A stretch of DNA of 32,571 nucleotides from an uncultured Verrucomicrobiales bacterium (GTDB lineage Bacteria > Verrucomicrobiota > Verrucomicrobiia > Verrucomicrobiales > DEV007), in NCBI GenBank assembly GCA_913058215.1, contig CAJXQE010000037.1:1-32571 (forward strand), given 5' to 3'. The notes below the pieces were generated by a model. It saw nothing but the letters and a program-made list of their open reading frames with translations. It had not been told where the DNA came from and searched no databases. The first letter of the stretch is position 1; the number at the start of each line of letters is the position of its first letter. Of this stretch, positions 5,579 to 31,471 are shown in pieces. Made by a program: the position numbers and the translations under genes.

Positions 5579-5604
5579 TGCGGTATGTCTAATAGAATCG
5601 GGTT

Positions 5605-6966
5605 TTACGGGCTCTCCCGCTGCCACGGAACCTGTCCGGCTTTGTTGATGTGCATCATCAGGGCGTGAAACAGTTCATTATATTTCTTCGGAGCCTTCGC
5701 CTTCGGAATCGGATTCTCCTCCGCTGGATCAGCCGCGAGATTGAAGAGCTGATACGGTTCAAACCCCGTGTTCCGCGTCAGCTTCCATCCGCTCCGCTGA
5801 ATGGCATGATAGTGGATACCCCCGTATCTTTGATTTCCTTCGAGTCGCACCCAAACAAGATCGCGATCTTCTTCCTCCATCGGCTCTCCCTTCAGGATCG
5901 GCAAAAAGCTGCGTCCGTCGAGTTCGTGTTCCACCGGGACTCCGGCGATTTCGGCGAGAGTCGGATAAAAATCCATCGTCAGCGAAGTGTGATCTCTGTT
6001 GCGAACTCCGGCCTCGATCTGTCCCGGCCAGATCACACAGGTCCCGACACGGATTCCGCCTTCCCACATTTCCTGCTTACCGCCGCGAAGGGGAAGGTTC
6101 CGTGCTCCGACACTGGATTGCCCGCCGTTATCACTGGTGAAAACCACGACAGTGTCTTCCCAGAGACCTTCGCTTTTCAGCGTCTTGATGACCCGTCCGA
6201 TTCCATCATCGAGATGCTCGATCAAGGCAACGAGGCCAGCGCGTTTGTCGGTGATCCCTTCCTCGCGGGCTTTTACTTTTTCCAGCCAATCCTGTGGCGG
6301 CTGAATCGGAGTGTGGGGAGCATTGTATGCAAGGTAGAGAAAGAAAGGGTTCTCCTCATCTTTCCGTCCCTTCAGATAGTCGATCGACCAGTCCGAGAAA
6401 ATGTCAGTGGCGTGTCCTTCCGGGTGAACCGGTTCTTCATTTCGACGCATGTAGTGCTGGCCATGACGGAAATGCTTGTAGTAATCATCCATCATGTCGC
6501 CAAGGAATCCGTGAAAAAAGTCGAAGCCGACGTCCGTGGGCCGGTCCGGTTTTTCCAATCCGAGATGCCATTTCCCGACGATGGCGGTGTCGTAGCCGGC
6601 CGTTTTTAAATGGGAAGGCAGGGTGATGACATCATTCCTGAGATCACCCCAACTGGTGGGTTGTCCCTCGATGGGGGTGCGAATGACACCTGGAACGCCG
6701 GCATTGTCCGGATAGAGCCCGGTAAGAAACGAAGCCCGCGTCGGAGAGCAGACCGGGCAGTTGGCATAGAACTGATCAAAGCGCATCCCTGCCGCAAAGA
6801 GGCTGTCGATGTTCGGAGATTTCAAATCCGGGGCCCCGTAGCAGGAAAGGTCCCCGTAGCCGAGGTCGTCGACCATGATGAAAAGAATGTTCGGCTTTTC
6901 GGGTGCCGCCTGCAGAATTCCTGACAAAGACCAAACCGCCGCAAATAAGAGAGAAAAGAATTTCAT
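5605..6966 (-). CDS. Secreted type I sulfatase (CSPTR active site)
   Basis: A 453-residue sulfatase with signal peptide MKFFSLLFAAVWSLSGILQAA, metal-binding FIMVDDLGYGD (D33, D34), formylglycine site CSPTRASFLTG (C73), GKWHLG, and SDNGG. The C-P-T-R form of the motif is common in marine Bacteroidetes and PVC sulfatases. The reading frame continues 122 codons further upstream, but those residues are low-complexity, rich in Arg/Ser, lack a plausible start and overlap the divergent gene, so I reject them. It is the first gene of a two-sulfatase unit. The promoter must lie in the 6967-7190 divergent region. The pair with 4211-5578 suggests successive desulfation steps on one glycan; this is inference. 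Confidence 0.93.
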   Translation of the reverse strand: MKFFSLLFAAVWSLSGILQAAPEKPNILFIMVDDLGYGDLSCYGAPDLKSPNIDSLFAAGMRFDQFYANCPVCSPTRASFLTGLYPDNAGVPGVIRTPIEGQPTSWGDLRNDVITLPSHLKTAGYDTAIVGKWHLGLEKPDRPTDVGFDFFHGFLGDMMDDYYKHFRHGQHYMRRNEEPVHPEGHATDIFSDWSIDYLKGRKDEENPFFLYLAYNAPHTPIQPPQDWLEKVKAREEGITDKRAGLVALIEHLDDGIGRVIKTLKSEGLWEDTVVVFTSDNGGQSSVGARNLPLRGGKQEMWEGGIRVGTCVIWPGQIEAGVRNRDHTSLTMDFYPTLAEIAGVPVEHELDGRSFLPILKGEPMEEEDRDLVWVRLEGNQRYGGIHYHAIQRSGWKLTRNTGFEPYQLFNLAADPAEENPIPKAKAPKKYNELFHALMMHINKAGQVPWQRESP

Positions 6967-7059
6967 AGTTTCCGTGTTTCGGTTTTTAATCCAGAACATG
7001 AGAATCCGAAAGAAAGAAATCGAAATTGTAAAGCATGCCGCCTTTGTCTTTCGAGTGCT

Positions 7060-7220
7060 CCGACAGCTGTGTGGGTCGGGCGCTTCGCCTGATCTGGAAC
7101 CACTACCGCGCCGGCGGGTCGGGATTTTTGAGGATTTGGGATCGTGTTCTTCCGAAAGGATACAGCCCGCCAATGCGGGTAGATTTTCAATGGCAAGCGG
7201 AGCGCTCGCCCTACAAGTGA
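7060..7220. repeat. Palindrome-rich intergenic segment, REP-like
   Basis: Between the divergent sulfatase and SGNH hydrolase lie several short inverted repeats: GGGCG-ctt-CGCCt near 7080, CCCGC-caat-GCGGG at about 7166-7179, and the perfect 8-mer GAGCGCTC near 7200 set in a GGC...GCC context. The composition differs from the coding DNA nearby. It may be an extragenic palindromic repeat or a set of operators for the divergent promoters. I see no second copy in the window. Confidence 0.35.
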
Positions 7221-8380
7221 TGCTTGTTGTGTGCTTTCTGCTTTTCAGTAATTCGGTGATGGCGGAGCCGGCTGTCGAAATGGGAAGTCGTGGCGTTTCT
7301 AATTTTATTGCCACGATTGAAAAAGAACGCAAAGCCCATGTCGCCTTTCTTGGAGGTTCGATTACGCAGAATGCGACGGGTCATACGAAGATGGTGCCGG
7401 ACTGGCTTACCAAAACGTATCCGGACGTGGAATTCACTTTTACCAATGCCGGACTCAGCTCAACCTGCTCGACCACCGGTGCCTTCCGCTTTGATCGGGA
7501 CATCCTCTCCAAAGGCCCGGTCGATTTGTTGATCGTCGAATTTGCGGTGAATGACGATCAGGACGCGATGCACGATCGCACCACCGCAATCCGCGGTCTC
7601 GAGGGAATTGTGCAGCAGTATTTCCAGACGAATCCCAAAGGAGATATCATTTCCGTCCAGTTTGTGAATCCCGGAATTTTAGAGAAGATCCAGAAAGAGG
7701 AGAAGCCGCTTAGTGTGGATGCTCACAAAACCGTCGCGAGACATTACGATATTCCCATCGTGGATGTCGGTCAGGCGTTGGCGGATGAGATCGCAGCCGG
7801 AAAGATGACCTGGGCGGAAGACTACAAGGGAACCCATCCGAATAAAATTGGGTATCAATTCGCCAGCGATCTGATCACTTCCGTGATCGCCAAGACTGTG
7901 TCCGGCGAAACGCCGCAGGAGCTTGCAATCCCCGAGCCCATCGATCCTCTTTCCTATTCCAGGCCGAGCGCAATTGATCCACAGGCCATGAGTTGGCTCG
8001 GCGGATGGAAATTTGAGACGGTCAGTAAAGAACTGCTTCCTCTCGGAGCGATTCGCGGTGATTTCACCAAATACAAAGCCCTGCGTTCCGACGGGGCGGG
8101 GGACATGCTTTACCACACTTTTATCGGCAGCATGTATGGCGCCTTTATCCTCGCCGGACCGGATGCCGGCATTCTCGAAGTCGCCATTGATGGTGGCGAG
8201 TGGAAGAAGGTAGACCTTTTTCACAAACACAGTGGTGGATTGAACTATCCGCGCAGCGTCATTTTTGCTGACGGCCTTTCATCTACTTATCATCAGGCTG
8301 CGATTCGCGTATCCGCTGAGAAGAATCCGAAGAGTAAAGGGAACACGGCGACGATTTTGTTTATTGAATCAAACGAGTAA
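7220..8380 (+). CDS. Secreted SGNH/GDSL-family hydrolase
   Basis: The product (386 residues from this start) has SGNH landmarks: the nucleophile block GGSIT (S47), a VEFAVND block and a C-terminal catalytic pair in DYKGTHPNKIGYQ. These enzymes remove acyl or acetyl groups, often from glycans. After about residue 240 comes a second, beta-rich domain of unknown role. The open frame reaches back to 6875, overlapping the divergent sulfatase. I favour ATG 7220 because MLVVCFLLFSNSVMA reads as the signal-peptide core; ATG 7190 is the alternative, but its first codons lie in a palindrome. Neither has a convincing Shine-Dalgarno. Next to sulfatases, deacylation of a sulfated polysaccharide is a reasonable inference. 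Confidence 0.82.
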   Translation: MLVVCFLLFSNSVMAEPAVEMGSRGVSNFIATIEKERKAHVAFLGGSITQNATGHTKMVPDWLTKTYPDVEFTFTNAGLSSTCSTTGAFRFDRDILSKGPVDLLIVEFAVNDDQDAMHDRTTAIRGLEGIVQQYFQTNPKGDIISVQFVNPGILEKIQKEEKPLSVDAHKTVARHYDIPIVDVGQALADEIAAGKMTWAEDYKGTHPNKIGYQFASDLITSVIAKTVSGETPQELAIPEPIDPLSYSRPSAIDPQAMSWLGGWKFETVSKELLPLGAIRGDFTKYKALRSDGAGDMLYHTFIGSMYGAFILAGPDAGILEVAIDGGEWKKVDLFHKHSGGLNYPRSVIFADGLSSTYHQAAIRVSAEKNPKSKGNTATILFIESNE

Positions 8381-8435
8381 GGGATTCGTTAAACATGGAC
8401 CGTGGAGGCGACAGGGTCGAATTCGAAAAGATAAC

Positions 8436-9932
8436 ATGCCCATGAATTACAGACTTCTTTGTATCTCAGTTCTGACACTGTTTCTCAGTTTCACCGCCCG
8501 GGGAGACAAAATGCCCAATATTCTCATGATCGCGGTCGATGATCTGCGACCGATGCTCGGTTGCTATGGTGATGAGCGGATGCACACGCCGAACATTGAT
8601 CGTCTCGCAGCAGATGGTCTGGTGTTCGATCGTGCCTATTGCCAGTATGCGAAGTGTGGCACCTCCCGACTGTCTTTGATGACAGGGCTGCGACCGGATT
8701 CCGTCGGTGTCTTCTCAAACAATCACAATGATGTGCGCCGGTTTCGTGAGCGCCGTCCTGATGCAGTTTCGATGGCGCAGTGGTTCAAGGAGAACGGCTA
8801 TGACACGCGCGGCTTCGGGAAGATTTATCACGATGGATGGGATCGCGCGGAAGAGTGGTCTGTTCCGCCATCACCGGGACGGGATAGCGAAATGCTGGAA
8901 GTGGTGGATGCGAAAAATCCGACTGCGCCGACGACGATTGCGGTGAGAACTGCCTGTCCCGTTTTTCAGAGCCCTGATGTTGAAGACGATCACCTTTTTG
9001 CCGGCCGGATGACGAATAAGGTGATTGACGTTCTCAAACATAAAACGGAGAAACCTTTCTTTTTGGCGCTTGGATATCGTCGACCTCATTTGCCCTTTGT
9101 GGCACCTAAGAAGTATTTTGATCTGTATGAGCCCGACGAATCCTGGCTGACAAAAGTCCCGGAGCCTTCGGCAGGCATTCCGGTGGCAGCATGGTACAAC
9201 TCGGACGGATACGTGGGCACCGCGAAGAAGCTGGGCCTGACCATGCCGAAGCGACCAGAGCGAGAGGCCGCGGTTAGCTGGAACGGTTTTGAAATGCGGA
9301 GCTATCTCGGAGTTCCTCCCAAAGGGGAGATTTCAACAGAACTCCAACTGGATCTGATTCATGCCTATGCGGCCTGCATCAGTTATGTGGATGCACAGGT
9401 CGGGAAAATTCTCGATGTATTGGAAGCGCAGGATTTGAGAAAGAATACCACCATCGTTTTCTGGTCGGATCACGGTTGGCATCTGGGTGAGCACAGCGCC
9501 TGGGGAAAAATGACCAACTACGAAATCGCGACACGGGTTCCGTTTATCATTTCCTCACCCGCTCATTCCAATGGACGGACCGACAGCATCGCTGAGCTTG
9601 TCGATTTGTATCCGACCTTGTGTGATCTTGCAGGATTGGATTCTCCGAAGCATTTGGAAGGGGAGAGCCTGCTGGAGGTTCTTCAGTCTCCGGAGACGAA
9701 AGAGTCCAGTGTCGCGAGAAGCCAGTATCTCCGATTCAAAGACATGATGGGGAAATCCCTTCGAACAGATCAGTATCGTTATACAAGGTGGGAGAAGTCA
9801 GGCACGGGCGAACTGGTTTTTGACGAATTGTATGACCACCAAAATGATCCAGGCGAAACAAACAACCTGGTCAACTCGAAGAGCCCGGAACATCGGACTG
9901 CTCTTTCCCGCCTTCAGAAACTGCAGTGGTGA
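8436..9932 (+). CDS. Iduronate-2-sulfatase-like secreted sulfatase
   Basis: A 498-residue sulfatase resembling iduronate-2-sulfatases: MIAVDDLRPMLGCYGD (D35, D36), a LMTGLRPDSVGVF stretch after the active site, GFGKIYHDG, LGYRRPHLPFVAPKKY, SDHGWHLGEHSAWGK. A signal peptide precedes it (NYRLLCISVLTLFLSFTARG). The formylglycine site reads CGTSR (C74), with Thr where the usual motif has Pro or Ala. GAAAAG just upstream could serve as a ribosome site; ATG 8442 is an alternative start. It follows the SGNH gene by 55 bases on the same strand. Its last 62 bases overlap the convergent membrane-protein gene. The open frame extends to 8265 inside the previous gene and is not used. Confidence 0.92.
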   Translation: MPMNYRLLCISVLTLFLSFTARGDKMPNILMIAVDDLRPMLGCYGDERMHTPNIDRLAADGLVFDRAYCQYAKCGTSRLSLMTGLRPDSVGVFSNNHNDVRRFRERRPDAVSMAQWFKENGYDTRGFGKIYHDGWDRAEEWSVPPSPGRDSEMLEVVDAKNPTAPTTIAVRTACPVFQSPDVEDDHLFAGRMTNKVIDVLKHKTEKPFFLALGYRRPHLPFVAPKKYFDLYEPDESWLTKVPEPSAGIPVAAWYNSDGYVGTAKKLGLTMPKRPEREAAVSWNGFEMRSYLGVPPKGEISTELQLDLIHAYAACISYVDAQVGKILDVLEAQDLRKNTTIVFWSDHGWHLGEHSAWGKMTNYEIATRVPFIISSPAHSNGRTDSIAELVDLYPTLCDLAGLDSPKHLEGESLLEVLQSPETKESSVARSQYLRFKDMMGKSLRTDQYRYTRWEKSGTGELVFDELYDHQNDPGETNNLVNSKSPEHRTALSRLQKLQW

Positions 9933-16903: not shown

Positions 16904-19900
16904 TCACTGCCCGGTAAATTTCCGTAGCACTTCAATTGCGGGAGCTCCTTTTGCTGATTCGATTCTCTCCAGAAGGATTTCGGGCGATGCCAGCATCGGA
17001 AGTTCATCCCGTTTGAACGGAGACCCTGATTTCAGCTCTTCTTCAACAGCACCAGGAATCCGGTTCAGTAATTCATCGAGTGATCTCAAATAATAAGTTC
17101 CGGTCTTGGAAGAAGGTGATAGCGGAATGTTGGTCCGATAGTGATTGCTCCAGCCAGTCCAGACAAAATTCTTTTCGAGATCGGCGGGACTTGCTCCCTG
17201 GAGTTCGAGGATAGAATTGGATGTATCAATGACGCAGTTGCTTGGGCTGAAAGCGAATTGGTGAAGAGCGCTGCTTGGAAACTTTGTCCCCAGATTCCTG
17301 GTGAAGACCGTGCTGCGGCGAAGTGAAAATTCAATCGGGTCAGACCCTTCTCTCCAACGCAGAAGAAACAGATTATTCCCCGAGACAAAACACTCCTCCA
17401 TTTTCACCCTGGAAACTCCGACTTTTTCGTCCATTTGAACAAGGTTTACAGCAGTTCCTGTTTTGAAGAGACAATCCCGAATCCTTGCCTCTTTTACGTC
17501 AGTCAGACTCAGCGCCGCACCTCTCGGTTCTCCGCCGGGCCCCGACTCATAGGATTCGAAATGACAATTCTCTACAACAACTTCTTCAATGGCTCCTTTG
17601 AAGCCAAGCATCGGAAGAGTCGAAGAAGGGGAGTAGAATCTCGCAAATCTCAAGCCGGAAACTTTAGCTGGATAGAAAAAGAAGATCGCGTGCGTTTCAG
17701 GGATCAAGGGAACCAGGGTCGGGCGTGTTCCAGGTGCATTCCTGATCGTGATACCAGACTTGTCCTTCACGAGAAGTTCGGGGCTACCCAGGTAGTGCCA
17801 GCCCGAAAGAAGAATTGTGCCGCCGGGTTCCACTGCATCAACCGCTTCTTTGATGGTATCGAACCTTTCTTCTGTCTTCTGAACGAGGGCGTAAGTCTCC
17901 TCATTGGATTGCAAAATCTCAAGGGGCAGCCGACCGTTGTTGGTTCCGGCAGGTCCTACGAGGATCTCATTTTTGCTCGTCGGAAATTGATCTCCGGTCG
18001 TCTCCCAGGAAACCGCATTTTTGAGAAGCGAGGGATGTTTGCCCTGAAACCAGAGTAAAGCATCCCGGGGACGAAAGGTGTTGCCGCCTCCGCTTACGGC
18101 AACTTTGTCAGAACCTGGATTGACCGGTCCCCGCAAAAACGTCTCCCCATCAAAGGTAAGGTGATCGCATACAATTTGAGTCAGTTTTTCGCCGCCCGAC
18201 CATGAGGAAACATCGATCCCGTAGAGTGCTTCCATCCTTGAATTCCGAATGGAAAGTCTGTTTTCATTTCCTTTTAAATTCAGCGCGCTACTATGCTTCA
18301 CAAAGAAACGGCAGTTATTAATTTTCGCATCGACGATATTCTTTAGCTCTACAGTTCTCGGGGTGAATTCCCCGTAGTGAACCTTTCTCGTTTCCAGGTG
18401 AGCAAACTCGCAGTCATCCATTTCGAGGGTCGTCCCATTCATGATTACGATCCCTTCGCCGTCCCGTTTCGGATTCAATCGAAAGTCGAGGCCACTCAGC
18501 CGTAAAGGGGAATAGCTGACGATACCGGGCGCGCCGGCAATCTGGGTGGTTAACACGGGGCGCGCACCTTTCAGGGAAGGCTGCAAAGTCAGCGGTTTTC
18601 CGGCGGGAATCTGAAGATTGTCCACCGAGATAGTCTCCTTGGCGGGCAGCATAATGATTCCCCCGGGATCAGCAGCTGCGACAGCGTCTGCGAGGGTGGA
18701 ATACGCTCCCAGTTTTCCAAGGATGTTAAAAGATTGTTCATGCCGAACTGCCAGCGCCCGGTTAACAAGTCTTTGAACCGGAGCAGTCTGAAGAAGTAAG
18801 AAGAGGGCCAAGGCAAGCGCACAACTTACCAAGGTGAAGATCAAGGCACTCTTCCTCCGCCGCGCTGTTCTTTTCGGCCGGGGGGAAAACTCATCCTCAA
18901 TTGCATGGACTACCAGATCCGCAGTTGCCGGGCGGTCCAATGGATCGTGCGCAATAAGGTTAGTCAGCAGCCTGCAAAAGTATCGGGGAAACATTCGCCC
19001 TGCGAACTCAATCTTTGTTTTCCCATCGGTCGCCAGCTCACCAAGAACAGATGCTGTGGTCCCTCCGGTCCGGAGAGCCCTGCCGCTTGCACAGCGGTAG
19101 AGAACTGCCCCCAGAGAATAGAGATCGCTTCGACCATCAAGGGTGGCTCCAGCAGCCTGCTCTGGAGACATGTATTTGGGTGTGCCTGCGATGGAACCTG
19201 CATAGGTTAATGAAGGATCGTCTTTACTCAATGCGATGCCGAAATCGCAAACCCAGATCTGCCCATTCTCCTCATCGAAAAGAATATTTCCCGGTTTGAT
19301 GTCACGGTGAACGATTCCATTCTCATGGGATACTTTCAGTGCCGATGCCACTTGAACCGTGATCGACTTAAGGGATTCAAGATCGAAGGTCTCGCCTTGA
19401 TCCAGCTTCTCTTGCAAAGTGCCTCCCGGGGCGAAACGCATCGCAAAGTAGGGGATGGCTTCGTCATAGACTCCGTAGATTGGGAGAATGTTATCGTGCT
19501 CCAACTTTGCGGACGCACGCGCCTCGCGAAGGAAGCGCTTCCGCGCGGTGGCGTTGGCAGAAAGCTCAGGCGACAAAACCTTTATCGCAGCAAGTCTGTC
19601 GAGTTCGGGATCCCGGGCCTTGAAGACGATACCCATTCCGCCCATGGCAATAAGCTCAATCACTTCATAGTCGCCTATCATCCCGAGGATAGAATCGTCT
19701 CCTTCGACAGGGGTGAGCACTTCCCTCCACGAATCCTCGCCAGGAGAGGCGCTCTCAGGTAGCGGAGTGCCGGAGACCCGGTCAATCAGAGCTGTCAGCG
19801 TTGGGTCGCCGGAGCGGGAGGAAATCTCAGCTAAATCGGCGAACTCTTCTTCTTCTGACGTCGAGGCATCAGGGAGGAAATCGGGATTCGCATCCAGCCA

Positions 19901-19987
19901 CAGCTCCAGATCAGAACTCTCCTCCGAAGAGAGGCTCCCAGAGAGCCATGCATCGATAACGATGTCGTCGGGCGGGGACTGCAGCAT
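16904..19987 (-). CDS. Hanks-type Ser/Thr kinase with extracytoplasmic beta-helix regions
   Basis: A 1027-residue receptor-like kinase. Residues 1-100 are acidic (DIVIDAWLSGSLSSEESSDLELWL, as in PVC regulators). The kinase domain spans about 105-370 with Gly-loop AMGGMGIVFKA, ATP lysine K136, HRDIKPGN (D229, N234), DFG (D248) and GTPKYMSPEQ; all catalytic residues are present. One transmembrane helix follows at about 381-400. The remaining 600 residues outside the cytoplasm look like two right-handed beta-helix units, each beginning with a matching motif: STLADAVAAADPGGIIML (430-447) and DTIKEAVDAVEPGGTILLSG (710-729). The sigma-factor gene ends 36 bases upstream. A perfect TATAAT lies six bases before ATG, so the kinase may also have its own leaderless promoter. 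The ligand is unknown. Confidence 0.92.
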   Translation of the reverse strand: MLQSPPDDIVIDAWLSGSLSSEESSDLELWLDANPDFLPDASTSEEEEFADLAEISSRSGDPTLTALIDRVSGTPLPESASPGEDSWREVLTPVEGDDSILGMIGDYEVIELIAMGGMGIVFKARDPELDRLAAIKVLSPELSANATARKRFLREARASAKLEHDNILPIYGVYDEAIPYFAMRFAPGGTLQEKLDQGETFDLESLKSITVQVASALKVSHENGIVHRDIKPGNILFDEENGQIWVCDFGIALSKDDPSLTYAGSIAGTPKYMSPEQAAGATLDGRSDLYSLGAVLYRCASGRALRTGGTTASVLGELATDGKTKIEFAGRMFPRYFCRLLTNLIAHDPLDRPATADLVVHAIEDEFSPRPKRTARRRKSALIFTLVSCALALALFLLLQTAPVQRLVNRALAVRHEQSFNILGKLGAYSTLADAVAAADPGGIIMLPAKETISVDNLQIPAGKPLTLQPSLKGARPVLTTQIAGAPGIVSYSPLRLSGLDFRLNPKRDGEGIVIMNGTTLEMDDCEFAHLETRKVHYGEFTPRTVELKNIVDAKINNCRFFVKHSSALNLKGNENRLSIRNSRMEALYGIDVSSWSGGEKLTQIVCDHLTFDGETFLRGPVNPGSDKVAVSGGGNTFRPRDALLWFQGKHPSLLKNAVSWETTGDQFPTSKNEILVGPAGTNNGRLPLEILQSNEETYALVQKTEERFDTIKEAVDAVEPGGTILLSGWHYLGSPELLVKDKSGITIRNAPGTRPTLVPLIPETHAIFFFYPAKVSGLRFARFYSPSSTLPMLGFKGAIEEVVVENCHFESYESGPGGEPRGAALSLTDVKEARIRDCLFKTGTAVNLVQMDEKVGVSRVKMEECFVSGNNLFLLRWREGSDPIEFSLRRSTVFTRNLGTKFPSSALHQFAFSPSNCVIDTSNSILELQGASPADLEKNFVWTGWSNHYRTNIPLSPSSKTGTYYLRSLDELLNRIPGAVEEELKSGSPFKRDELPMLASPEILLERIESAKGAPAIEVLRKFTGQ

Positions 19988-19993
19988 TTCAAA

Positions 19994-19999
19994 ATTATA
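19994..19999 (-). promoter_or_regulatory. Possible internal -10 box for the kinase gene
   Basis: The minus strand reads TATAAT six bases before the kinase ATG, so transcription would begin at or next to the start codon. A weak -35 (TCGAAG, 16-base spacer) is present. This could allow kinase expression independent of the sigma gene. Confidence 0.3.
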
Positions 20000-20023
20000 C
20001 TAGCTTAAGGATGAGCTTCGATT

Positions 20024-20656
20024 TCAAACTTTTTGCATTTTTTCTATCATCTCCGCTTCCCAATTTTCCGCGTCAACGGACTGGGCTTTCTCACGCAGTC
20101 TCTTCACAACTCTGAACTTCGCAAGGGTGACCGCGTTCTTGCTCATTCCCGTTTCCGTCGCAACATCTCCCGGCTCCCGCCCATGGAGAGCAGTCTGCTC
20201 GAACGCGTTCCAGATTCTATCGGCAAATTCTGATCGGATTTTTTCAATCGCCCATCCAAGCAATTCGCGACGGTAATCTTTCTCCCAGTCATGAATTTCC
20301 CGCTCATCCGGCTTATCCTCGATCTGTTGCAGCATCCTGGTTTCTGCTGCCGTAATCGGCCTCTTGGAAGCTTTTTTGAAATGCTTTCCGATCGCATTGC
20401 GGACTGCAGTGAACAGCCACCCCTTGAATTTTCCCTTTTGCGGATCGTATTCGAAACCCTTCATCGCGAGAGATACCGATCGCATGACTTCCTGAACAAT
20501 ATCAGCTGAATCCTGTTTCTTGATCTCCCGCTTCTGACAATACCGATAAAGAAGCGGGGTATAAATCTCCGCAAACTCACGCCACGACGCATCGTCCGCC
20601 GGATCGCGGAGCCGAAGCAAAAGTGTTTCCCGGGTAAGTAAAGGGTCTTCAGACAT
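20024..20656 (-). CDS. ECF-type RNA polymerase sigma factor
   Basis: A 210-residue sigma-70 family protein with region 2 (SWREFAEIYTPLLYRYCQK, DSADIVQEVMRSV, GKFKGWLFTAVRNAIG) and region 4 (DRIWNAFEQTALHGREPGDVATETGMSKNAVTLAKFRVVKRLRE, a helix-turn-helix). Regions 1 and 3 are absent, as in extracytoplasmic-function factors. It resembles the PVC groups encoded beside Ser/Thr kinases. There is no anti-sigma factor gene; the kinase gene starts 36 bases downstream and is the likely controller, perhaps by phosphorylation. A good promoter precedes it at 20702-20730. Confidence 0.9.
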   Translation of the reverse strand: MSEDPLLTRETLLLRLRDPADDASWREFAEIYTPLLYRYCQKREIKKQDSADIVQEVMRSVSLAMKGFEYDPQKGKFKGWLFTAVRNAIGKHFKKASKRPITAAETRMLQQIEDKPDEREIHDWEKDYRRELLGWAIEKIRSEFADRIWNAFEQTALHGREPGDVATETGMSKNAVTLAKFRVVKRLREKAQSVDAENWEAEMIEKMQKV

Positions 20657-21779: not shown

Positions 21780-23501
21780 ATGTCTGATACGATCCAAACC
21801 ATTACCATTCCTAAGCCCGTTCCGGTGACGACGACCCGTATGCGTCCACCGAAGAAGAATATTCCTCAGACCAAGGGCGAACGGGACGAAGTTTTGCGCG
21901 TCATCAGAAATTATGTGGAATCGGATAATCCTGTTCCACCGATGCCCCTGGAAGAGCTGGATGTTCATGCCCGAAAGATTCTCGATGAGCTAAAATATCC
22001 TGACGATACTTATCTTCATTACACCGCAGTCTGTCTGAATAACGAGATGTGGCGGGAAACTCTTGCCGAGATTCCCTATGAGAGGCGTCTTCTCCTGATG
22101 CCTAAATGCCTGCGGGTGGAAGACAAATGCCCGGCTCCTTTTGATGAATTCGGCCTCCTTTGTAAACAGTGCGGACTTTGCTCGATTGAAGATTTTCAGA
22201 ATGAGGCTGAAAAGCTCGGTTACGCGGTGCTCGTGGCAGAAGGATCCGCTATTGTGATGTCTCTGATTCAAACGGGTCAGATTGAAGCGATCGTCGGGAT
22301 TTCCTGCCTTGCTGTTTTGGAAAGGACGTTCCCGTATGTGGAAGCGGCGGCAATTCCTTCTATCGCAGTCCCTCTCTTGCAGGACGACTGCGTCAACACG
22401 ACCGTCGATATCGATTGGGTCTGGGAATACATCCACCTCACCAGCGACGACAAGACCCGTCGACTTGATCTCACTTCTCTCCATGATGAAGTGAAAGAAT
22501 GGTTCACGCCGGCGGCGATCACAGAGATTCTCGGAGAGCCCGAGGGAAAGACTGAAGAAATCGCGCATGAATGGTTGGCTCGTGACGGAAAGCGCTGGCG
22601 CCCGTTTTTGACGGTGGCAGCTTTTCAGGCGCTTCGTGAAGATCGCGGAGAGCCGATTCCGGATGACATTAAGAAGATCGCTTTTGCTTCAGAGATTTTC
22701 CATAAAGCCTCACTCGTTCATGATGATATCGAGGATGAAGATCACGGCCGATACGATCAGCCTACCTTGAATGCTGAACACGGAGTGCCAGTGGCTCTGA
22801 ATGTAGGGGATTTATTGATCGGTGAGGGATATCGCCTTATCGGTGAGTGTGATGCGAGTGACGCCCGGAAAGTGGAAATGCTGAATGTGGCAGCTCAGGG
22901 ACAACGCGAATTGTGTCGTGGTCAGGGCGCGGAGCTTTGCTGGGCACAGAAACCGGTTCCACTGGATTCTAAACAAGTCCTCGAAATTTTCCGTCAGAAG
23001 ACTGCTCCGGCATTCGAAGTTGCGCTGAAACTCGGTGCCAGCTATGCGGGGCAACTGGAGGATTACGCCGACGTTCTTAAAGAGTATTCTGAAAATCTCG
23101 GGATTGCCTACCAGATCCGTGACGACATGGATGATCTTGGCGAAGATGCCGGTGACAACGAGTTGGAGCAAATGCGCCCCAGTGTTCTTCTGGCATTGGC
23201 CAGAGAGCGAGCCAAAGGCGACGACCGCGCGGTTCTCGATTCTCTCTGGAGCCACGAAGATCTCAAGGACATCGCTATTCACAAGATTCGGACGCTGGCC
23301 CATGAGCTGGAAGCTGATGATAAATGTATGCTCCTCTTGGAGACTTACAAAGAACAGGCTGTCCGCAGTCTTGCCGAACTCGACAATGCCAATCTGAAAG
23401 GTTTGCTACGCCGGGTGATGGGTAAGATTTTCAATGATCTCGAAATCAAAGGCTGGTGCCGCGAGTTCGAGATGACTCAGGGACTTCGCGAGGAAGCTTA
23501 G
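21780..23501 (+). CDS. DUF116-polyprenyl synthetase fusion protein
   Basis: This 573-residue protein joins two domains. Residues about 80-220 are DUF116-like with many cysteines: C85, C110, C117, C128, C131, C134, C176 and C204, including LMPKCLRVEDKCPAP and CKQCGLC, which suggests metal or Fe-S binding; the domain's function is unknown. Residues about 255-560 are a trans-isoprenyl diphosphate synthase: GKRWRP (270-275), first Asp-rich motif DDIED (315-319), QKTA, and second motif DDMDD (448-452), all intact for condensing isopentenyl diphosphate with an allylic primer. Small residues A310 and S311 before the first motif, where short-chain enzymes carry aromatics, point to a longer product. 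The gene precedes small membrane proteins, a Tes-like radical SAM protein and an Lgt homologue. Confidence 0.92.
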   Translation: MSDTIQTITIPKPVPVTTTRMRPPKKNIPQTKGERDEVLRVIRNYVESDNPVPPMPLEELDVHARKILDELKYPDDTYLHYTAVCLNNEMWRETLAEIPYERRLLLMPKCLRVEDKCPAPFDEFGLLCKQCGLCSIEDFQNEAEKLGYAVLVAEGSAIVMSLIQTGQIEAIVGISCLAVLERTFPYVEAAAIPSIAVPLLQDDCVNTTVDIDWVWEYIHLTSDDKTRRLDLTSLHDEVKEWFTPAAITEILGEPEGKTEEIAHEWLARDGKRWRPFLTVAAFQALREDRGEPIPDDIKKIAFASEIFHKASLVHDDIEDEDHGRYDQPTLNAEHGVPVALNVGDLLIGEGYRLIGECDASDARKVEMLNVAAQGQRELCRGQGAELCWAQKPVPLDSKQVLEIFRQKTAPAFEVALKLGASYAGQLEDYADVLKEYSENLGIAYQIRDDMDDLGEDAGDNELEQMRPSVLLALARERAKGDDRAVLDSLWSHEDLKDIAIHKIRTLAHELEADDKCMLLLETYKEQAVRSLAELDNANLKGLLRRVMGKIFNDLEIKGWCREFEMTQGLREEA

Positions 23502-23542
23502 GGTAGTCTCCGAAAAGTAGGACGGATTTTTATCCCCTCACC

Positions 23543-23728
23543 ATGATCCTGCTTCCCAGGCTTGGTATGGGGTTTTCCGGCTACTGTTCGGGAGAGTGGG
23601 TTTCCCGAAGAGTCCCTTTCAAGGAAGCGGGCCGGTTCGCGCCTGGAGTTCTTTGCGGTCTGACTGTTGGCGCCTCCTCCACCATTCTGCTTTTCGCGGC
23701 TTGTGTGATTTTGATGGACCTCTATTGA
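23543..23728 (+). CDS. Possible small membrane protein
   Basis: A 61-codon frame with one C-terminal hydrophobic span (LCGLTVGASSTILLFAACVILMDLY). It lies 41 bases after the prenyl synthetase gene on the same strand. No ribosome site or recognised family supports it. It may be a real short gene or a remnant. If it is not coding, 23502-23806 is a 305-base stretch in which I see nothing else. Confidence 0.35.
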   Translation: MILLPRLGMGFSGYCSGEWVSRRVPFKEAGRFAPGVLCGLTVGASSTILLFAACVILMDLY

Positions 23729-23806
23729 CCTTCGCCGCGAGAGAAGGTGTAATCATTTACCTGAAAGGTCCGAAAGCTTACCGCCGTATAATTTACCAGC
23801 CACTAT

Positions 23807-24103
23807 ATGAAGAAGTTTCTATTTTGCCTCGGGCCCGCGGTTCTCTGCATTTTCACAGCAATTTTCGCTGCCTACGGAGGGAGTAGCGGACCGAACGATA
23901 TTTTTCTTACCGTTTGCCTTGGCCTGCTGGCGATTGGGGCGATTGCATCAGGCATCTGTGTCGGTCGAAGCGTCTACGCCAAGTCGACTCTGGGAAAGGC
24001 CTGGAAAATAACCGTCAGTATTCTTTGTGGTGTGGCAACCGCATTTGGATATGGAGTATTCCTCTTCGGAGGTTGCTGCGCTCTTATTTCTGCATTTGCC
24101 TGA
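23807..24103 (+). CDS. Small hydrophobic membrane protein
   Basis: A 98-residue protein with about three hydrophobic spans: MKKFLFCLGPAVLCIFTAIFAAYGG, IFLTVCLGLLAIGAIASGICVG, and ITVSILCGVATAFGYGVFLFGGC. A lysine-rich start and clean membrane segments make it look real, but I do not recognise the family. It sits between the prenyl synthetase and the radical SAM genes on the same strand, so it may serve that pathway. Confidence 0.6.
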   Translation: MKKFLFCLGPAVLCIFTAIFAAYGGSSGPNDIFLTVCLGLLAIGAIASGICVGRSVYAKSTLGKAWKITVSILCGVATAFGYGVFLFGGCCALISAFA

Positions 24104-24181
24104 GAAGGCCGGGGGAGCATCGCTAGTTAACTCCGAGCCCATGTATTGATGAGAATGATAGTCCGCTCAAAACAATCGATT

Positions 24182-24209
24182 TTGAAAACTCCTGCGGTCT
24201 CTCTATTCT
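24182..24209 (+). promoter_or_regulatory. Candidate promoter before the small membrane protein/radical SAM genes
   Basis: TTGAAA (24182-24187), a 16-base spacer and TATTCT (24204-24209) stand six bases before ATG 24216. Transcription from here would be leaderless or nearly so. It could drive the 24216-26642 genes separately from the prenyl synthetase. Confidence 0.3.
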
Positions 24210-24215
24210 CGAGGC

Positions 24216-24533
24216 ATGGATCGATTTCGAAAATGGTGGATGATTCCCGCCTTCATTACTGCCTCGCTAATTGGGGGAGAGCTTGTCTGTTTGATTTACG
24301 GCATCCACCCGCCGATTCTGACCTGGGTCGGTCTCGGGGTAAGACTGATCCTGGGCATACTTCTACTGGTCAGCCTTTTCCTGGGACGGATAGGATTCAA
24401 GCGTTCAACCGGGCCGATGTGGCGGCGAATTGTTTGCGGCCTTCTTTGCTTCTTGATGAGCTATGCGGGTCTTTTCTTTTTCATCGTGCCCGCAGGATGC
24501 ACAATAATACTCTATGCTAGCTTTTCGCGATGA
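24216..24533 (+). CDS. Small membrane protein coupled to the radical SAM gene
   Basis: A 105-residue protein with three likely membrane segments: WMIPAFITASLIGGELVCLIYG, WVGLGVRLILGILLLVSLFLG and IVCGLLCFLMSYAGLFFFIVPAGC. I do not recognise its family. Its stop overlaps the next start as ATGA (24530-24533), a classic sign of translational coupling, which supports both that it is real and that it works with the radical SAM protein. Confidence 0.7.
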   Translation: MDRFRKWWMIPAFITASLIGGELVCLIYGIHPPILTWVGLGVRLILGILLLVSLFLGRIGFKRSTGPMWRRIVCGLLCFLMSYAGLFFFIVPAGCTIILYASFSR

Positions 24534-25888
24534 ACTCTACACTAACGAAACTTAAATCCACCACCAGCTTCTGTTCCCAATGCCGGGAAAAGGTTCCTGC
24601 CGATGTTGTGCAAACGGAAGCTTCAGAAGTGTGGCTACATAAGAAGTGCCCGACCTGCGGAGAGCAATCCGTGAAGATTTCCTCGGATGCCCGGTTTTAC
24701 TGGCTGTCGAAAGGACAGGATGAAAATGACTGCTCCGATGGAAGCTGCGGATGTGCCGTTCCTGCGAAAGGCGATCAGATTGGCTTCCTCGGGGGCAATG
24801 CGGTGATGGATTTACCGAAAGTGGATCCGCTGGAAAAATTGTCGACCTGCCTCGCGCTGATCGAGATTGTTGACTCCTGCAACTTGAGTTGCCCGACCTG
24901 TTTTGCCGACTCACCCCACGAATCACAAGTCGACGCCGTGCCGCTCGATGAACTCAAGTCGAGAATTCAGGGAGTGATTGACCGGAAGGGCGGTATCGAA
25001 ATTCTTCAACTGTCAGGAGGTGAGCCCACCTTGCACCCTCAGTTTTTTGAGCTGATTTCCTGGTGTCGAGAGAATGAGAATATTGATTACGTTCTCGTGA
25101 ATTCCAACGGTGTCCGGCTTGCCGGGGATAAGGAGTTTGGAGAGCAGTTGAAAGAATCAGTCGCCTACGGTCATTTCCAGTTTTACCTGCAATACGATGG
25201 ACCCGATCTTCCCGGGGAAGTCGAGCTTCGTGGTGCTGATCTCCGCAAAATGAAACACAAAGCGATCGAGCGGGCAGGGGAGTTGGGGATTCCCATGACC
25301 CTCGCCATGACGGTGATTCCGGAAAACATCGAGCAGCTCTGGAAGACCGTGGAATATGGATTGCAGTTCGAACACGTTCGCGGAGTAGCCTTTCAGCCGA
25401 TGTTCGGAAGCGGGCGCTCTCACGAAAAAGAAGCAGCACGACTCAATACTGCCGATCTGATTCTCGGATTGGTCGGGCAGTCGGACGGCCAACTTTCCTT
25501 CGATGATTTCACACCTCTTCCCTGCGGAGATCCCAACTGCGCCACGATTGGCTATCTCATGAAGATGGGCGGGGAAATCCATTCCATCAGTGAATTCGTC
25601 GATTTCGGAACTTTACAGGGGTTTATCAGCGACCGGGTTCGCTATCGACTCGAGGATCTCGCCAAGTGCGGATGCGAATCAGAGCCGCTTGGAAAACTAC
25701 TCCATGATCTGGAAATGGATGAGCGGCATACTTTTCGCCTTTTCATCAAACCCTTCATGGATGGCGAGGACTGGGATCAGGATAGAATTGACCGGTGCTG
25801 CACCCATGTGATTCGCCCCGACGGAGCCCTCGATTCCTTTTGCCGCTATTACTTAAAGGGTGGCGCGGCTGGTTGCGTGACTTCCTGA
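24530..25888 (+). CDS. Cysteine-rich radical SAM protein, Tes (MJ0619)-like
   Basis: A 452-residue radical SAM enzyme. The N-terminus has two CxxC pairs (C15/C18, C40/C43) that could hold a rubredoxin-like iron. The SAM cluster motif is CNLSCPTC (C117, C121, C124), followed by LSGGEPTLHP. Further cysteines (C332, C337, C380, C382, C423, C424, C438, C449) suggest auxiliary clusters. This plan, including CCTHVIRPDG...FC near the C-terminus, matches what I recall of archaeal tetraether synthase (MJ0619), which links lipid tails through sp3 C-C bonds, and its bacterial relatives. The assignment is by motif, not alignment. It is coupled upstream to a small membrane protein and followed 13 bases later by an Lgt-family gene. 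Another lipid or prenyl substrate is equally possible. Confidence 0.85.
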   Translation: MNSTLTKLKSTTSFCSQCREKVPADVVQTEASEVWLHKKCPTCGEQSVKISSDARFYWLSKGQDENDCSDGSCGCAVPAKGDQIGFLGGNAVMDLPKVDPLEKLSTCLALIEIVDSCNLSCPTCFADSPHESQVDAVPLDELKSRIQGVIDRKGGIEILQLSGGEPTLHPQFFELISWCRENENIDYVLVNSNGVRLAGDKEFGEQLKESVAYGHFQFYLQYDGPDLPGEVELRGADLRKMKHKAIERAGELGIPMTLAMTVIPENIEQLWKTVEYGLQFEHVRGVAFQPMFGSGRSHEKEAARLNTADLILGLVGQSDGQLSFDDFTPLPCGDPNCATIGYLMKMGGEIHSISEFVDFGTLQGFISDRVRYRLEDLAKCGCESEPLGKLLHDLEMDERHTFRLFIKPFMDGEDWDQDRIDRCCTHVIRPDGALDSFCRYYLKGGAAGCVTS

Positions 25889-25901
25889 TACTTTTTGAAA
25901 C

Positions 25902-26642
25902 ATGGTCGACTGGGAGAAAGCGATTCAGTCCGGTTCATTCGGGCTTTATGCCTGGATCATGCTGGGCGGCATCGTCATCGGCGGATGGCTTTGGTCGAGA
26001 CGGTGGAAAAAAGAGCCGCATCTTTTCGGAATTTATGTCGGCGGACTTTGCGGAGCCTTCATCGGGGCAAAAATCCTCTACCTGGTTTCCGAAGGCTATC
26101 TTCACTTCGATGATGAGAATTGGCTGTTCTATGTTGCCAGCGGAAAAACCATCGTAGGCGCTTTGTTAGGAGGGTATCTCGGTGTCGAGCTGACGAAGAA
26201 ACTACTCGAGCACAAAAAAGCGACCGGTGACTGGTTTGCTGTAATTGTCCCGCTAAGTATTGCCTTTGGTCGGGTGGGGTGTCTGCGATACGGTTGTTGT
26301 CTAGGAGAGAAATGTGATCCGGAGAAATGGTATGCGATGGTCGACAAAACGGGCATCGCAAGATGGCCAGCGGTGCCCCTGGAACTTGGTTTCAACCTCC
26401 TGTTTCTGGCTGCGATTCTCCCGATCAAGAAGGCAGGTGTCGGAAAAGGGCAGCTATTCCACGCCTACCTCGTTTCCTACGGAGCCTTCCGACTCTGGCA
26501 TGGTTTCTATCGGAATACTCCGGACCTTATTTTTGGACTTAGCGGCTATCAGCTCGGTTCGATTGGATTGATTCTGCTCGGAGGAATCATGGGATGGCGA
26601 CGGCACACGCAATCAGGGCCCCGACCGACCACGGTCGTTTAG
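25902..26642 (+). CDS. Divergent Lgt-family (prolipoprotein diacylglyceryl transferase-like) membrane protein
   Basis: A 246-residue multi-spanning protein with the Lgt fold: GKTIVGALLGGYLGV (81-95), GRVGCLRYGCCLGEKC (123-138) and YGAFRLWHGFYRNTPD (193-208), with R124 and R197 at positions corresponding to essential arginines of Lgt. True Lgt carries an HGGL motif, GRxGNFxN and an EFxR motif; here the HGGL histidine is missing, Asn is replaced by Cys, and the Glu of EFxR is Gly. Four cysteines cluster at 127-138. It is therefore unlikely to be the housekeeping lipoprotein enzyme and may move a lipid group to or from a different acceptor. It follows the radical SAM gene by 13 bases. Confidence 0.82.
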   Translation: MVDWEKAIQSGSFGLYAWIMLGGIVIGGWLWSRRWKKEPHLFGIYVGGLCGAFIGAKILYLVSEGYLHFDDENWLFYVASGKTIVGALLGGYLGVELTKKLLEHKKATGDWFAVIVPLSIAFGRVGCLRYGCCLGEKCDPEKWYAMVDKTGIARWPAVPLELGFNLLFLAAILPIKKAGVGKGQLFHAYLVSYGAFRLWHGFYRNTPDLIFGLSGYQLGSIGLILLGGIMGWRRHTQSGPRPTTVV

Positions 26643-29728: not shown

Positions 29729-31291
29729 TCACGGTGCGACAAGACCGTCTTCGACCATTTCGGCTTTGGTTCGTCGAGGGCGGACCCGGGCGGGGGTCGG
29801 GACTCCTGTGACGCGGTCAAATTCATCTGCAGTTCGCAGCTCCGGAGCACTGTCCTCAGTGAGCTTTTCCCAATCCGCAAGCGCTGCGCGCATTGAAGAC
29901 AGAAGCGAAGAGAATCGTTCGTCTGCCGCAAGATTGTTGAGCTCAAAAGGATCAAGCTTGGTGTCATAAAGTTCCTCAGCCGGACGGGGAGCATTGAAAC
30001 AGGTCAGCTGATGGGGGAGCAATTCTCCGCTTTCCCGAAGGCGAAGAAGCTCAATGTAGGTCGGGCTCCTCACTGCGTCAGCCGGAGGAGTCTGCGGCAG
30101 GTCATTGTAGTAATTCCGGATGAATTTATAGCGCTCATTGCGAACTGCCCTGACATGATCTTCAAAATCGTGCCAGTTTTTCTCCGCATAGACATACTCC
30201 CGGATCGGGGTATTCGGATCGGTCAGAAGCGGGGCGAAATTGCGTCCCTGAAAAGTCGGCCCGATCTCGGTGATTCCGGCGATGTTCAGAAATGTCGGGC
30301 CAATGTCTACCGAACTCACAAGTCGGGATGATGTCGATCCGGGGATGATTTTCTCAGGCCACCGCACAATCCACGGAGTCTTGATCCCACTATCGTAGAG
30401 AGTTGTCTTATCGCGTGGAAACGGACGACCGTTGTCGCTGATGAAAAGCACTACGGTATTCTGGGATGCCTGCTGCTCCGCGAGTTTGTCGAGAACGAGG
30501 CCAACATATTTATCGAGACGGGTGATTTCGTCGTAGTATTGCTGATAGTCGACCCTCACGGAGGGAGTATCCGGATGATAGGGCGCCACTTTGATTTCAT
30601 CGGTCCGTGCGCCATCTTTAATGATGTTCTGGTGATAGGGGCGATGAGGATCCAATGCGGCCAGCCAAAGGAAAAATGGCTGATCTTTTGGCCGATTATC
30701 CATCAGAGCCATCCAATCGGCACAACCGCTTTGGGCTTCACCTTGCAGGGTCTCTTTGAATTTCCCCGCTTTCCCTGCTTCACCGGAAGGAAGTTGAAAT
30801 CCGGAAGTATCGACTTCGCGAACCTCATTGAAACGGTCTTTCATCGCGTCACCGAGATGCCATTTCCCGGCAGCGGCCGTCCAGTAGCCCTTGTCCTTCA
30901 ACTTCTCTACAAAAGTAATTTGATCCTCCGGAACCGGCCAATGAAGTTCCTCGGCGTTGGTACTGTGAGGGTAACGACCGGTGACAATACTGGCGCGACT
31001 CGGGCTGCAGGAACTGATAGTGAGAAAAGCGTTGTCGAAGCGCATCCCTTCATCGGCAAGGCGCTGCAAGTTCGGGGTCATGATCCGGTCGTGACCATAA
31101 GGAGCGCAATCGTCCCAGGCCATGTCGTCGGCGATGATGAGAACCAGGTTGGGAAGCTTCAGCAACTCTGCTTTCCTGGCCGCTTCTTCCGCAGCGACTT
31201 CTTCGGCAGTTTTCTCCTTCTTTTCGTCATCGTCTTGAGCGATGGCAAGGGTGAACAAGAGAGGAGCGAGGAGGAAATAGAATCGGTGCAT
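29729..31291 (-). CDS. Secreted sulfatase, heparan N-sulfatase-like
   Basis: A 520-residue sulfatase with signal peptide MHRFYFLLAPLLFTLAIAQ. An unusual charged stretch of about 30 residues (20-46, rich in Asp, Glu, Lys and Ala) precedes the core. Core residues: LIIADDMAWDD (D55, D56), formylglycine site SCSPSRASIVTGRYP (C95), AAGKWHLGDA and FISDNGRPFPRDK. The SPHSTNAEELHWPVP region and the overall pattern resemble N-sulfoglucosamine sulfohydrolases. The open frame extends to 31447, but ATG 31291 gives the signal peptide. It is the first gene of a minus-strand operon continuing to 26741. A weak promoter-like TTGACC lies about 50 bases upstream. Confidence 0.92.
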   Translation of the reverse strand: MHRFYFLLAPLLFTLAIAQDDDEKKEKTAEEVAAEEAARKAELLKLPNLVLIIADDMAWDDCAPYGHDRIMTPNLQRLADEGMRFDNAFLTISSCSPSRASIVTGRYPHSTNAEELHWPVPEDQITFVEKLKDKGYWTAAAGKWHLGDAMKDRFNEVREVDTSGFQLPSGEAGKAGKFKETLQGEAQSGCADWMALMDNRPKDQPFFLWLAALDPHRPYHQNIIKDGARTDEIKVAPYHPDTPSVRVDYQQYYDEITRLDKYVGLVLDKLAEQQASQNTVVLFISDNGRPFPRDKTTLYDSGIKTPWIVRWPEKIIPGSTSSRLVSSVDIGPTFLNIAGITEIGPTFQGRNFAPLLTDPNTPIREYVYAEKNWHDFEDHVRAVRNERYKFIRNYYNDLPQTPPADAVRSPTYIELLRLRESGELLPHQLTCFNAPRPAEELYDTKLDPFELNNLAADERFSSLLSSMRAALADWEKLTEDSAPELRTADEFDRVTGVPTPARVRPRRTKAEMVEDGLVAP

Positions 31292-31471
31292 GGAATCGGA
31301 AAACTGGAAGTGGCTAATCTTGCCATTTTGTCGGAGAGGGTCAACCAAAGAGAACAGCGGAAAAGAAAAAGGAAACCGTGCTAAATCGATCTTCTGCCCC
31401 TCTTGAATCGCACACTCGCGACTCGACAAGCTTCGAGATATTTGCATAGTTTAAGGAAAGAAAACTCCTCC

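Follow-up and report, generated by a model that had tools for sequence, protein, structure and literature searches.

What is the function of the closely spaced, same-strand genes at positions 21780-26642 of a 32,571-nucleotide stretch of DNA from an uncultured Verrucomicrobiales bacterium? The stretch (the window) is contig C37 (CAJXQE010000037.1) of a 7.7-Mb assembly made up of 595 contigs, referred to here as the own genome. The first-pass annotation of the window had treated five or six of these genes as a single lipid-tailoring unit, in which a polyprenyl or lipid chain is made, radically modified or cross-linked, and transferred at the membrane. We found that the conserved core consists of three parts: small membrane proteins, a radical S-adenosylmethionine (SAM) enzyme resembling Tes, and a divergent Lgt-like enzyme. 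These are conserved together in many Verrucomicrobiota and Planctomycetota, while the upstream synthetase counted in the original unit is not conserved with them. The unit looks like an undescribed way to attach lipid to proteins, and our preferred reading, to which we give a little less than an even chance, is that its three parts work together to modify the C-terminal end of membrane proteins.

All of the open reading frames (ORFs) named in the annotation were present on the plus strand. The Tes-like radical SAM enzyme (452 amino acids, 24530-25888, plus strand) has a Radical_SAM domain (9e-17) and a zinc-ribbon N-terminus, and the Lgt-like membrane enzyme (246 amino acids, 25902-26642, plus strand) has an LGT domain (4e-22). 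The described ATGA coupling was seen at 24530-24533, where the ORF of a small membrane protein ends and the radical SAM gene starts, as was the 13-base gap (25889-25901) between the radical SAM and Lgt-like genes. Domain matches bore out the assigned families, radical SAM and divergent LGT, and also DUF116 plus polyprenyl synthetase for the gene further upstream (polyprenyl_synt, 5e-42; DUF116, 5e-36).

Linkage of the two enzymes was examined in two sets of genomes. Among 122 genomes of the same class, with radical SAM counted at E 1e-30, the enzyme was present in 10, namely the window, six genomes with 57-63% identity and three remote genomes with 30-39%, and each of the 10 has an Lgt-family match on the contig of the radical SAM match, no more than about 500 bases from it. 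A close radical SAM gene occurred in 7 of the 122 genomes and a close Lgt-like gene in exactly those 7. From a scan of public genomes we kept the best 80 radical SAM loci, mostly from Verrucomicrobiota and Phycisphaerae by record titles, and defined as core the 72 with a radical SAM match of at least 400 bits. A same-strand Lgt-like gene was found in 58 of the 80 loci, 57 of them core; among core loci that have 2 kb of room or the gene itself, the fraction was 57/63, a tight linkage over two phyla of the kind that the lipid-tailoring hypothesis predicts. In the six exceptions (L056, L078, L087, L089, L098 and L109) an Lgt-like gene was found elsewhere in the genome, at 225-270 bits. The same search placed the Lgt-like gene several kb from radical SAM in the L060 and L080 genomes; loci L050, L088 and L046 lie near contig ends, and the L046 genome yielded an Lgt-like match of 89 bits only. 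Protein distances of the two enzymes were correlated across 62 loci (r=0.85; permutation maximum 0.36 in 2000 trials), a comparison that ignores species kinship. No other of the neighbour families inspected around the loci was common to most of them.

The arrangement of the unit varies. A second form, with the Lgt-like gene first and the small ORFs downstream, was found in L034, L035 and L116; there the radical SAM enzyme is without the CGC motif described below, the last Cys and further cluster-type cysteines, and the Lgt-like enzyme is without GCC. In L060, L080 and L081 the radical SAM and Lgt-like genes are separated by 3.4-4.9 kb. Related units also occur in L052, L086 and L105, from genomes titled delta proteobacterium, Parcubacteria and Paceibacterota.

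The small membrane proteins were correctly noted in the first-pass annotation, but were mentioned only in passing, though they are a core part of the unit and the best clue to its function. Two in the window, both proposed substrates, are predicted to have three helices: a 98-residue protein (23807-24103, plus strand) ending in LFGGCC (Cys90/Cys91) plus 7 residues, and the 105-residue protein (24216-24533, plus strand) that overlaps the radical SAM gene, ending in VPAGC plus 10 residues. Homologues of the 98-residue protein stand in the same position at L037, L038, L039 and L041, and its predicted structure has helices at 3-23, 31-59 and 64-97 (mean predicted local distance difference test score, pLDDT, 77.5; predicted template modelling score, pTM, 0.48). 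A 61-residue ORF (23543-23728, plus strand) ending in TILLFAAC plus 7 residues is tentatively a third, 5'-truncated member; it has no first membrane helix and no homologue among 89 loci.

For comparison across genomes, a small ORF was required to have at least two predicted helices and to end no more than 150 bases from the radical SAM gene; a C-terminal Cys was one 2-16 residues from the end, and [GAST]C denotes G, A, S or T preceding it. Small hydrophobic ORFs occur just upstream of radical SAM or between radical SAM and the Lgt-like gene; a qualifying one directly upstream of radical SAM was found at 56 of the 90 loci examined (50/80 from the scan, 5/9 from further genomes, and the window), with a C-terminal Cys in 54 and [GAST]C in 52. 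Excluding the six loci on which the motif was first noticed, the counts were 48/50 for Cys and 46/50 for [GAST]C (45/47 and 43/47 when non-redundant), compared with a mean of 9.9 and a maximum of 21 of 50 for [GAST]C when the last 45 residues were shuffled in 2000 trials; the test is not fully blind, because the numeric rule was written after a listing of the other loci had been viewed. Among the 54 ORFs, F stands at -3 in 30 and G or A at -2 in 33, and the Cys is preceded by G (35), S (7), T (6) or A (4) and followed by a tail of 4-14 residues, mostly 5-11. Signal peptidase II requires a small residue before the Cys. The composition would therefore also suit release of a lipopeptide, in which a cut by this peptidase after lipidation frees the Cys and its tail; however, the tail is variable and none of the nearby conserved genes is a dedicated peptidase, and we consider such release distinctly improbable.

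Specificity of the ending was assessed with a strict signature (a helix, then hydrophobic-x-[GAS]-Cys, then 4-12 residues before the stop). It matched 57 of 5658 same-strand ORFs, all from -1500 to +3500 bases relative to the radical SAM start, and none of 6091 antisense ORFs. The window's own three small ORFs are missed by this signature and recovered by a relaxed rule (3 of 369 window ORFs). In 20 other stretches of the own genome, covering about 0.4 Mb, the relaxed rule matched 2 of 4565 ORFs, both on contigs that had been deliberately included (C18 and C86), and in the control genome G119 it matched 2 of 4582. A control of far ORFs was small, 31 with non-genes among them, and gave a Cys in 9 and the motif in 3. 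No such small ORF was found for six remote radical SAM relatives whose loci contain no Lgt-like gene (L108, L110 and L112-L115).

The small proteins share little apart from this ending. In alignment A3 the columns have a mean identity of 12%; conservation of the Cys in A3, and in the 80 ORFs used for topology below, proves nothing because both sets were picked for having a Cys. Most have three helices and some have one, and the same end is found on longer or single-helix proteins in L046, L068 and L100. The N-termini are often proline-rich or zinc-ribbon-like by eye. Up to three non-overlapping [GAST]C copies were counted per locus, and both L116 and L073 have four small ORFs in tandem. The lipobox-like motif examined is C-terminal, 4-14 residues from the end in the 54 ORFs, rather than N-terminal; the N-termini were not scanned for one. 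The NCBIfam lipo-invert tail family NF058595 matched 2 of 83 small proteins at E 1 (best 0.0023), short of its cut-off of 37 bits. No match exceeded that cut-off in the 122 same-class genomes, and in 149 genomes of another phylum one did, in a translated stretch without a membrane helix. Small size and strong divergence make these proteins easily missed in annotation.

On which side of the membrane would the Cys lie? Lys and Arg were counted in 80 three-helix ORFs, out of 132, selected because they have the Cys. A mean of 3.1 such residues was found in the loop preceding the last helix vs 0.7 in the first loop, and the former is the more basic of the two in 74 of 80 ORFs (the reverse in 1, equal in 5); the tail after the Cys has a mean of 0.47. 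By the positive-inside rule, the basic loop before the last helix therefore predicts that the Cys faces the periplasm, the side on which Lgt works.

Relatives of the small proteins also occur away from the enzymes. With a profile built from the 98-residue protein and four homologues, four further matches were obtained. Two are unlinked small proteins of the own genome, one on C18 with the end FAGCSLIAPIVSQ and one on C86 with the end GGCSLVLGLT; another is a second copy ending PAGCGLS, 1.3 kb upstream in the L038 genome; and the fourth, L163, is without the motif. The C18 protein is encoded just downstream of a GroEL-like gene (by eye), on the same strand. A broader profile, which included proteins from G000 and G022 and one much like that of G111, was run on 15 genomes. 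It found a protein with the Cys end in 7 of 7 genomes with the system and in none of 8 related genomes without it, five of which share genera with two of the carriers. G088 has an unlinked Cys-ended member, although no small ORF was seen at its own locus, bringing the unlinked members to two in G000 and one in G088. Weak matches without the motif numbered three in G119, one in G111 and one in G084. Because the copies are tandem, divergent and partly unlinked, and share mainly their C-terminal end, the small proteins are probably substrates.

The Lgt-like enzyme has the Lgt fold and matches the family profile, but falls short of the curated cut-offs for Lgt (TIGR00544, 36.6 bits vs 118.9; NF000778, 58.9 vs 334). 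Residues were compared by matching the profile alignment to the published numbering of E. coli Lgt. In that enzyme R143 and R239 are essential and H103 is critical; the arginines bind and activate lipid, E151 belongs to the first phosphatidylglycerol site, and the HGGL motif, which holds H103, is the proposed site for the lipobox peptide (Mao et al.). Both arginines are retained, R143 as R124 (68/68) and R239 as R197 (67/67), as are the equivalents of Y26 (60/62), E202 (66/67) and Y235 (65/67). In contrast, the His of HGGL is lost (L 29, T 14, V 10, M 10, I 3, A 2 in place of H103; His in 0/68), and the region of N146 and E151 is replaced by GRxGCxxxGCC, with Cys for N146 in 68/68 and for E151 in 63/68. 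Retention of lipid residues together with a changed peptide site would suit an enzyme that acts on a different acceptor. The GCC motif also occurs outside the system: the own genome has three Lgt-family proteins, a canonical one (L137, on C277), that of the unit, and a third (L138, on C28), which is also of the GCC type.

For the radical SAM enzyme, the Tes structure 7tol (MJ0619, GDGT-MAS) was matched at 3.9e-33, with homology in pieces over most of the length that takes in the rubredoxin-like N-terminus, the radical SAM core and the C-terminal cysteines. It does not reach the curated cut-off for Tes (NF045702, 159.3 bits vs 450), nor that of the best curated family, the TrsS radical SAM (seleno)protein (NF045646, 213.8 bits over residues 105-443 vs 490). 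In a core alignment of 69 homologues (81 near-full-length sequences minus 12 remote or variant rows), 15 cysteine positions are kept in at least 68 of the 68 or 69 aligned. The radical SAM CX3CX2C (C117/C121/C124) is present in 69/69 and the rubredoxin-like C15/C18/C40 in 68/68; a fourth ligand, by comparison with the Tes positions given in PMC9433317, is H in 5 and C in 2 (the window and L037) of 7 core sequences. Residues 380-382 of the window-type enzyme form an additional, invariant CGC not shared with Tes; the six remote homologues whose loci contain no Lgt-like gene do not have it. Met439 and Tyr459 of Tes, reported to be conserved in archaeal Tes homologues, are replaced at the aligned places by Lys407 and Val427 in the window enzyme, and the two enzymes have different partner genes.

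We infer the following steps for the preferred, C-terminal modification reading. The small protein would close with a helix that leads into a lipobox-like F-x-[G/A/S]-Cys and a short tail. The layout of a lipoprotein signal peptide, with its basic loop, its hydrophobic helix and x-G-Cys on the periplasmic face, would thus recur at the opposite terminus. The Lgt-like enzyme would transfer a glyceryl lipid onto the C-terminal Cys, a step that we judge evenly balanced. The Tes-like enzyme would join or otherwise alter lipid tails, before or after transfer; that it acts on lipid rather than on peptide is put forward tentatively. The bolder element of this model is that the lipid anchor is tailored or cross-linked, an idea suggested by Tes, whose chemistry, the closest known, joins lipid tails. 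In its most far-reaching version, which we think quite unlikely, the Tes-like enzyme would make a lipid whose tails are coupled across the membrane, which the Lgt-like enzyme would load on the Cys, giving a covalent, bilayer-spanning protein anchor. To our knowledge no system pins membrane proteins by a covalent bilayer-spanning lipid on a C-terminal Cys after a helix. The same Tes chemistry (PMC9433317), together with the lipid-binding residues retained in the Lgt-like enzyme, would also be consistent with a pathway for a free lipid, in which both enzymes make an unusual, possibly membrane-spanning lipid while the small proteins serve as scaffold or in electron transfer and their Cys has a structural role. 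However, copies that stand in tandem and diverge strongly, with unlinked paralogues that share mainly a C-terminal end, fit a substrate better than a subunit, and we regard the free-lipid pathway as rather unlikely.

Several points weigh against C-terminal lipidation. The chemistry of both candidate enzymes is predicted from sequence; the Lgt-like enzyme is without H103, essential in E. coli Lgt, and may not be a transferase; and the radical SAM enzyme should be cytoplasmic while the Cys is predicted to be periplasmic. The motif had been noticed on six loci and the rule set after others had been seen. Under the first filter a [GAST]C small ORF was missing in 23 of the 72 core loci, and when these and L033 were rescanned under a loose rule, by reading, 4 had [GAST]C, 8 had another residue before the Cys, and 12 of the 24 were still without a Cys-ended small ORF. 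The neighbouring ORF is without the Cys in L087 and L084, and has another residue before it in L052 and L070. In the six exception genomes, none of the unlinked Lgt-like genes was found to have a Cys-ended small ORF within 1.5 kb, and just two of the radical SAM genes have one upstream.

That last distribution, with the small ORF beside two radical SAM genes and no Lgt-like gene, is also an argument for the main rival, which is supported by the small gene adjoining radical SAM: a pathway like those for ribosomally synthesized and post-translationally modified peptides (RiPPs), in which the radical SAM enzyme modifies the small protein, with the C-terminal Cys or the tail as possible sites, and the product is anchored by the Lgt-like enzyme, unless that enzyme has another role. 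A small ORF directly upstream of radical SAM, as at the 56 loci, resembles a precursor with its maturase, and RiPP-lipoprotein hybrids are known (DAG-RiPPs, PMC12636315). On the other hand, strong conservation in the small proteins is confined to a Cys, preceded by a small residue, where a membrane helix ends; the nearest enzyme whose chemistry is known, Tes, acts on lipid tails; and one Lgt-like piece (L143, from the L050 genome) does adjoin a Cys-ended small ORF. We consider the RiPP-like pathway unlikely.

The DUF116-polyprenyl synthetase fusion (21780-23501, plus strand) is judged a neighbour and not part of the unit. Counted at E 1e-40, it was found in 19 of the 122 same-class genomes, 16 of which are without the radical SAM enzyme; it is not enriched among radical SAM genomes (3/10, P=0.19), and of the three genomes that have both genes, two (G056 and G011) carry them on different contigs. 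In the public scan, in which 60 of the 80 loci include at least 2.8 kb upstream of radical SAM, it was found at two, the close relatives L037 and L038. It was therefore rejected as a member. The co-occurrence anticipated by the first-pass annotation thus holds for the Tes-like with the Lgt-like gene and fails for the synthetase, and prenyl chain synthesis as the first step fails with it. A route in which the synthetase supplies a polyprenyl or lipid chain to the two enzymes has in its favour the upstream position of the gene in the window and in those two relatives; with the gene not found in the remaining 78 loci, and most synthetase genomes without radical SAM, we consider it highly improbable.

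Elsewhere in the window, there are four sulfatase genes (4211-9932 and 29729-31447), and a sigma-factor-like gene adjoins a gene for a large protein (16904-20656) that, by eye, starts with a Ser/Thr-kinase-like domain and goes on with repeats. The contig end (32539-32571) resembles a sequencing adapter (ctgtctcttatacacatctgacgctgccgacga), which we take to be a Nextera transposase end, so the tail of the last ORF is an artefact.

How does the unit compare with known systems? Its components are relatives of known families, and by sequence neither enzyme reaches the cut-off of the NCBIfam families compared here. No description of the three-part unit was found in open-licence literature, judged by titles and the starts of abstracts, and we regard it as a variant of protein lipidation and C-terminal sorting systems that has a real chance of being more than that. 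If the preferred reading is true, bacteria would possess a second way to lipidate proteins, one that acts at the C-terminus and includes a radical enzyme that may make an unusual anchor. The unit would also give a function to a Tes-like subfamily otherwise mistaken for tetraether-lipid machinery, which would matter when such genes serve as markers of membrane-spanning lipids. DAG-RiPPs likewise combine peptide modification with lipoprotein-type lipidation of a Cys, but use an N-terminal signal peptide, an MNIO enzyme and the general lipoprotein pathway, and we saw no Tes-like enzyme in the description consulted (PMC12636315). The MYXO-CTERM/myxosortase system resembles the unit in having a C-terminal sorting signal built on an invariant Cys. 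There the Cys precedes a helix that is followed by an Arg-rich cytoplasmic tail (PMC11980579), whereas here the Cys is near or after the helix end and the tail, with its mean of 0.47 Lys/Arg, has no such Arg-rich cluster; nor is a myxosortase-like protease conserved here, because no further gene is conserved near the loci. For MYXO-CTERM proteins, an Lgt-like lipidation of the C-terminal Cys has been proposed with the enzyme not identified (PMC11980579), and the unit described here, with its divergent Lgt-like enzyme and C-terminal Cys, bears on that question.

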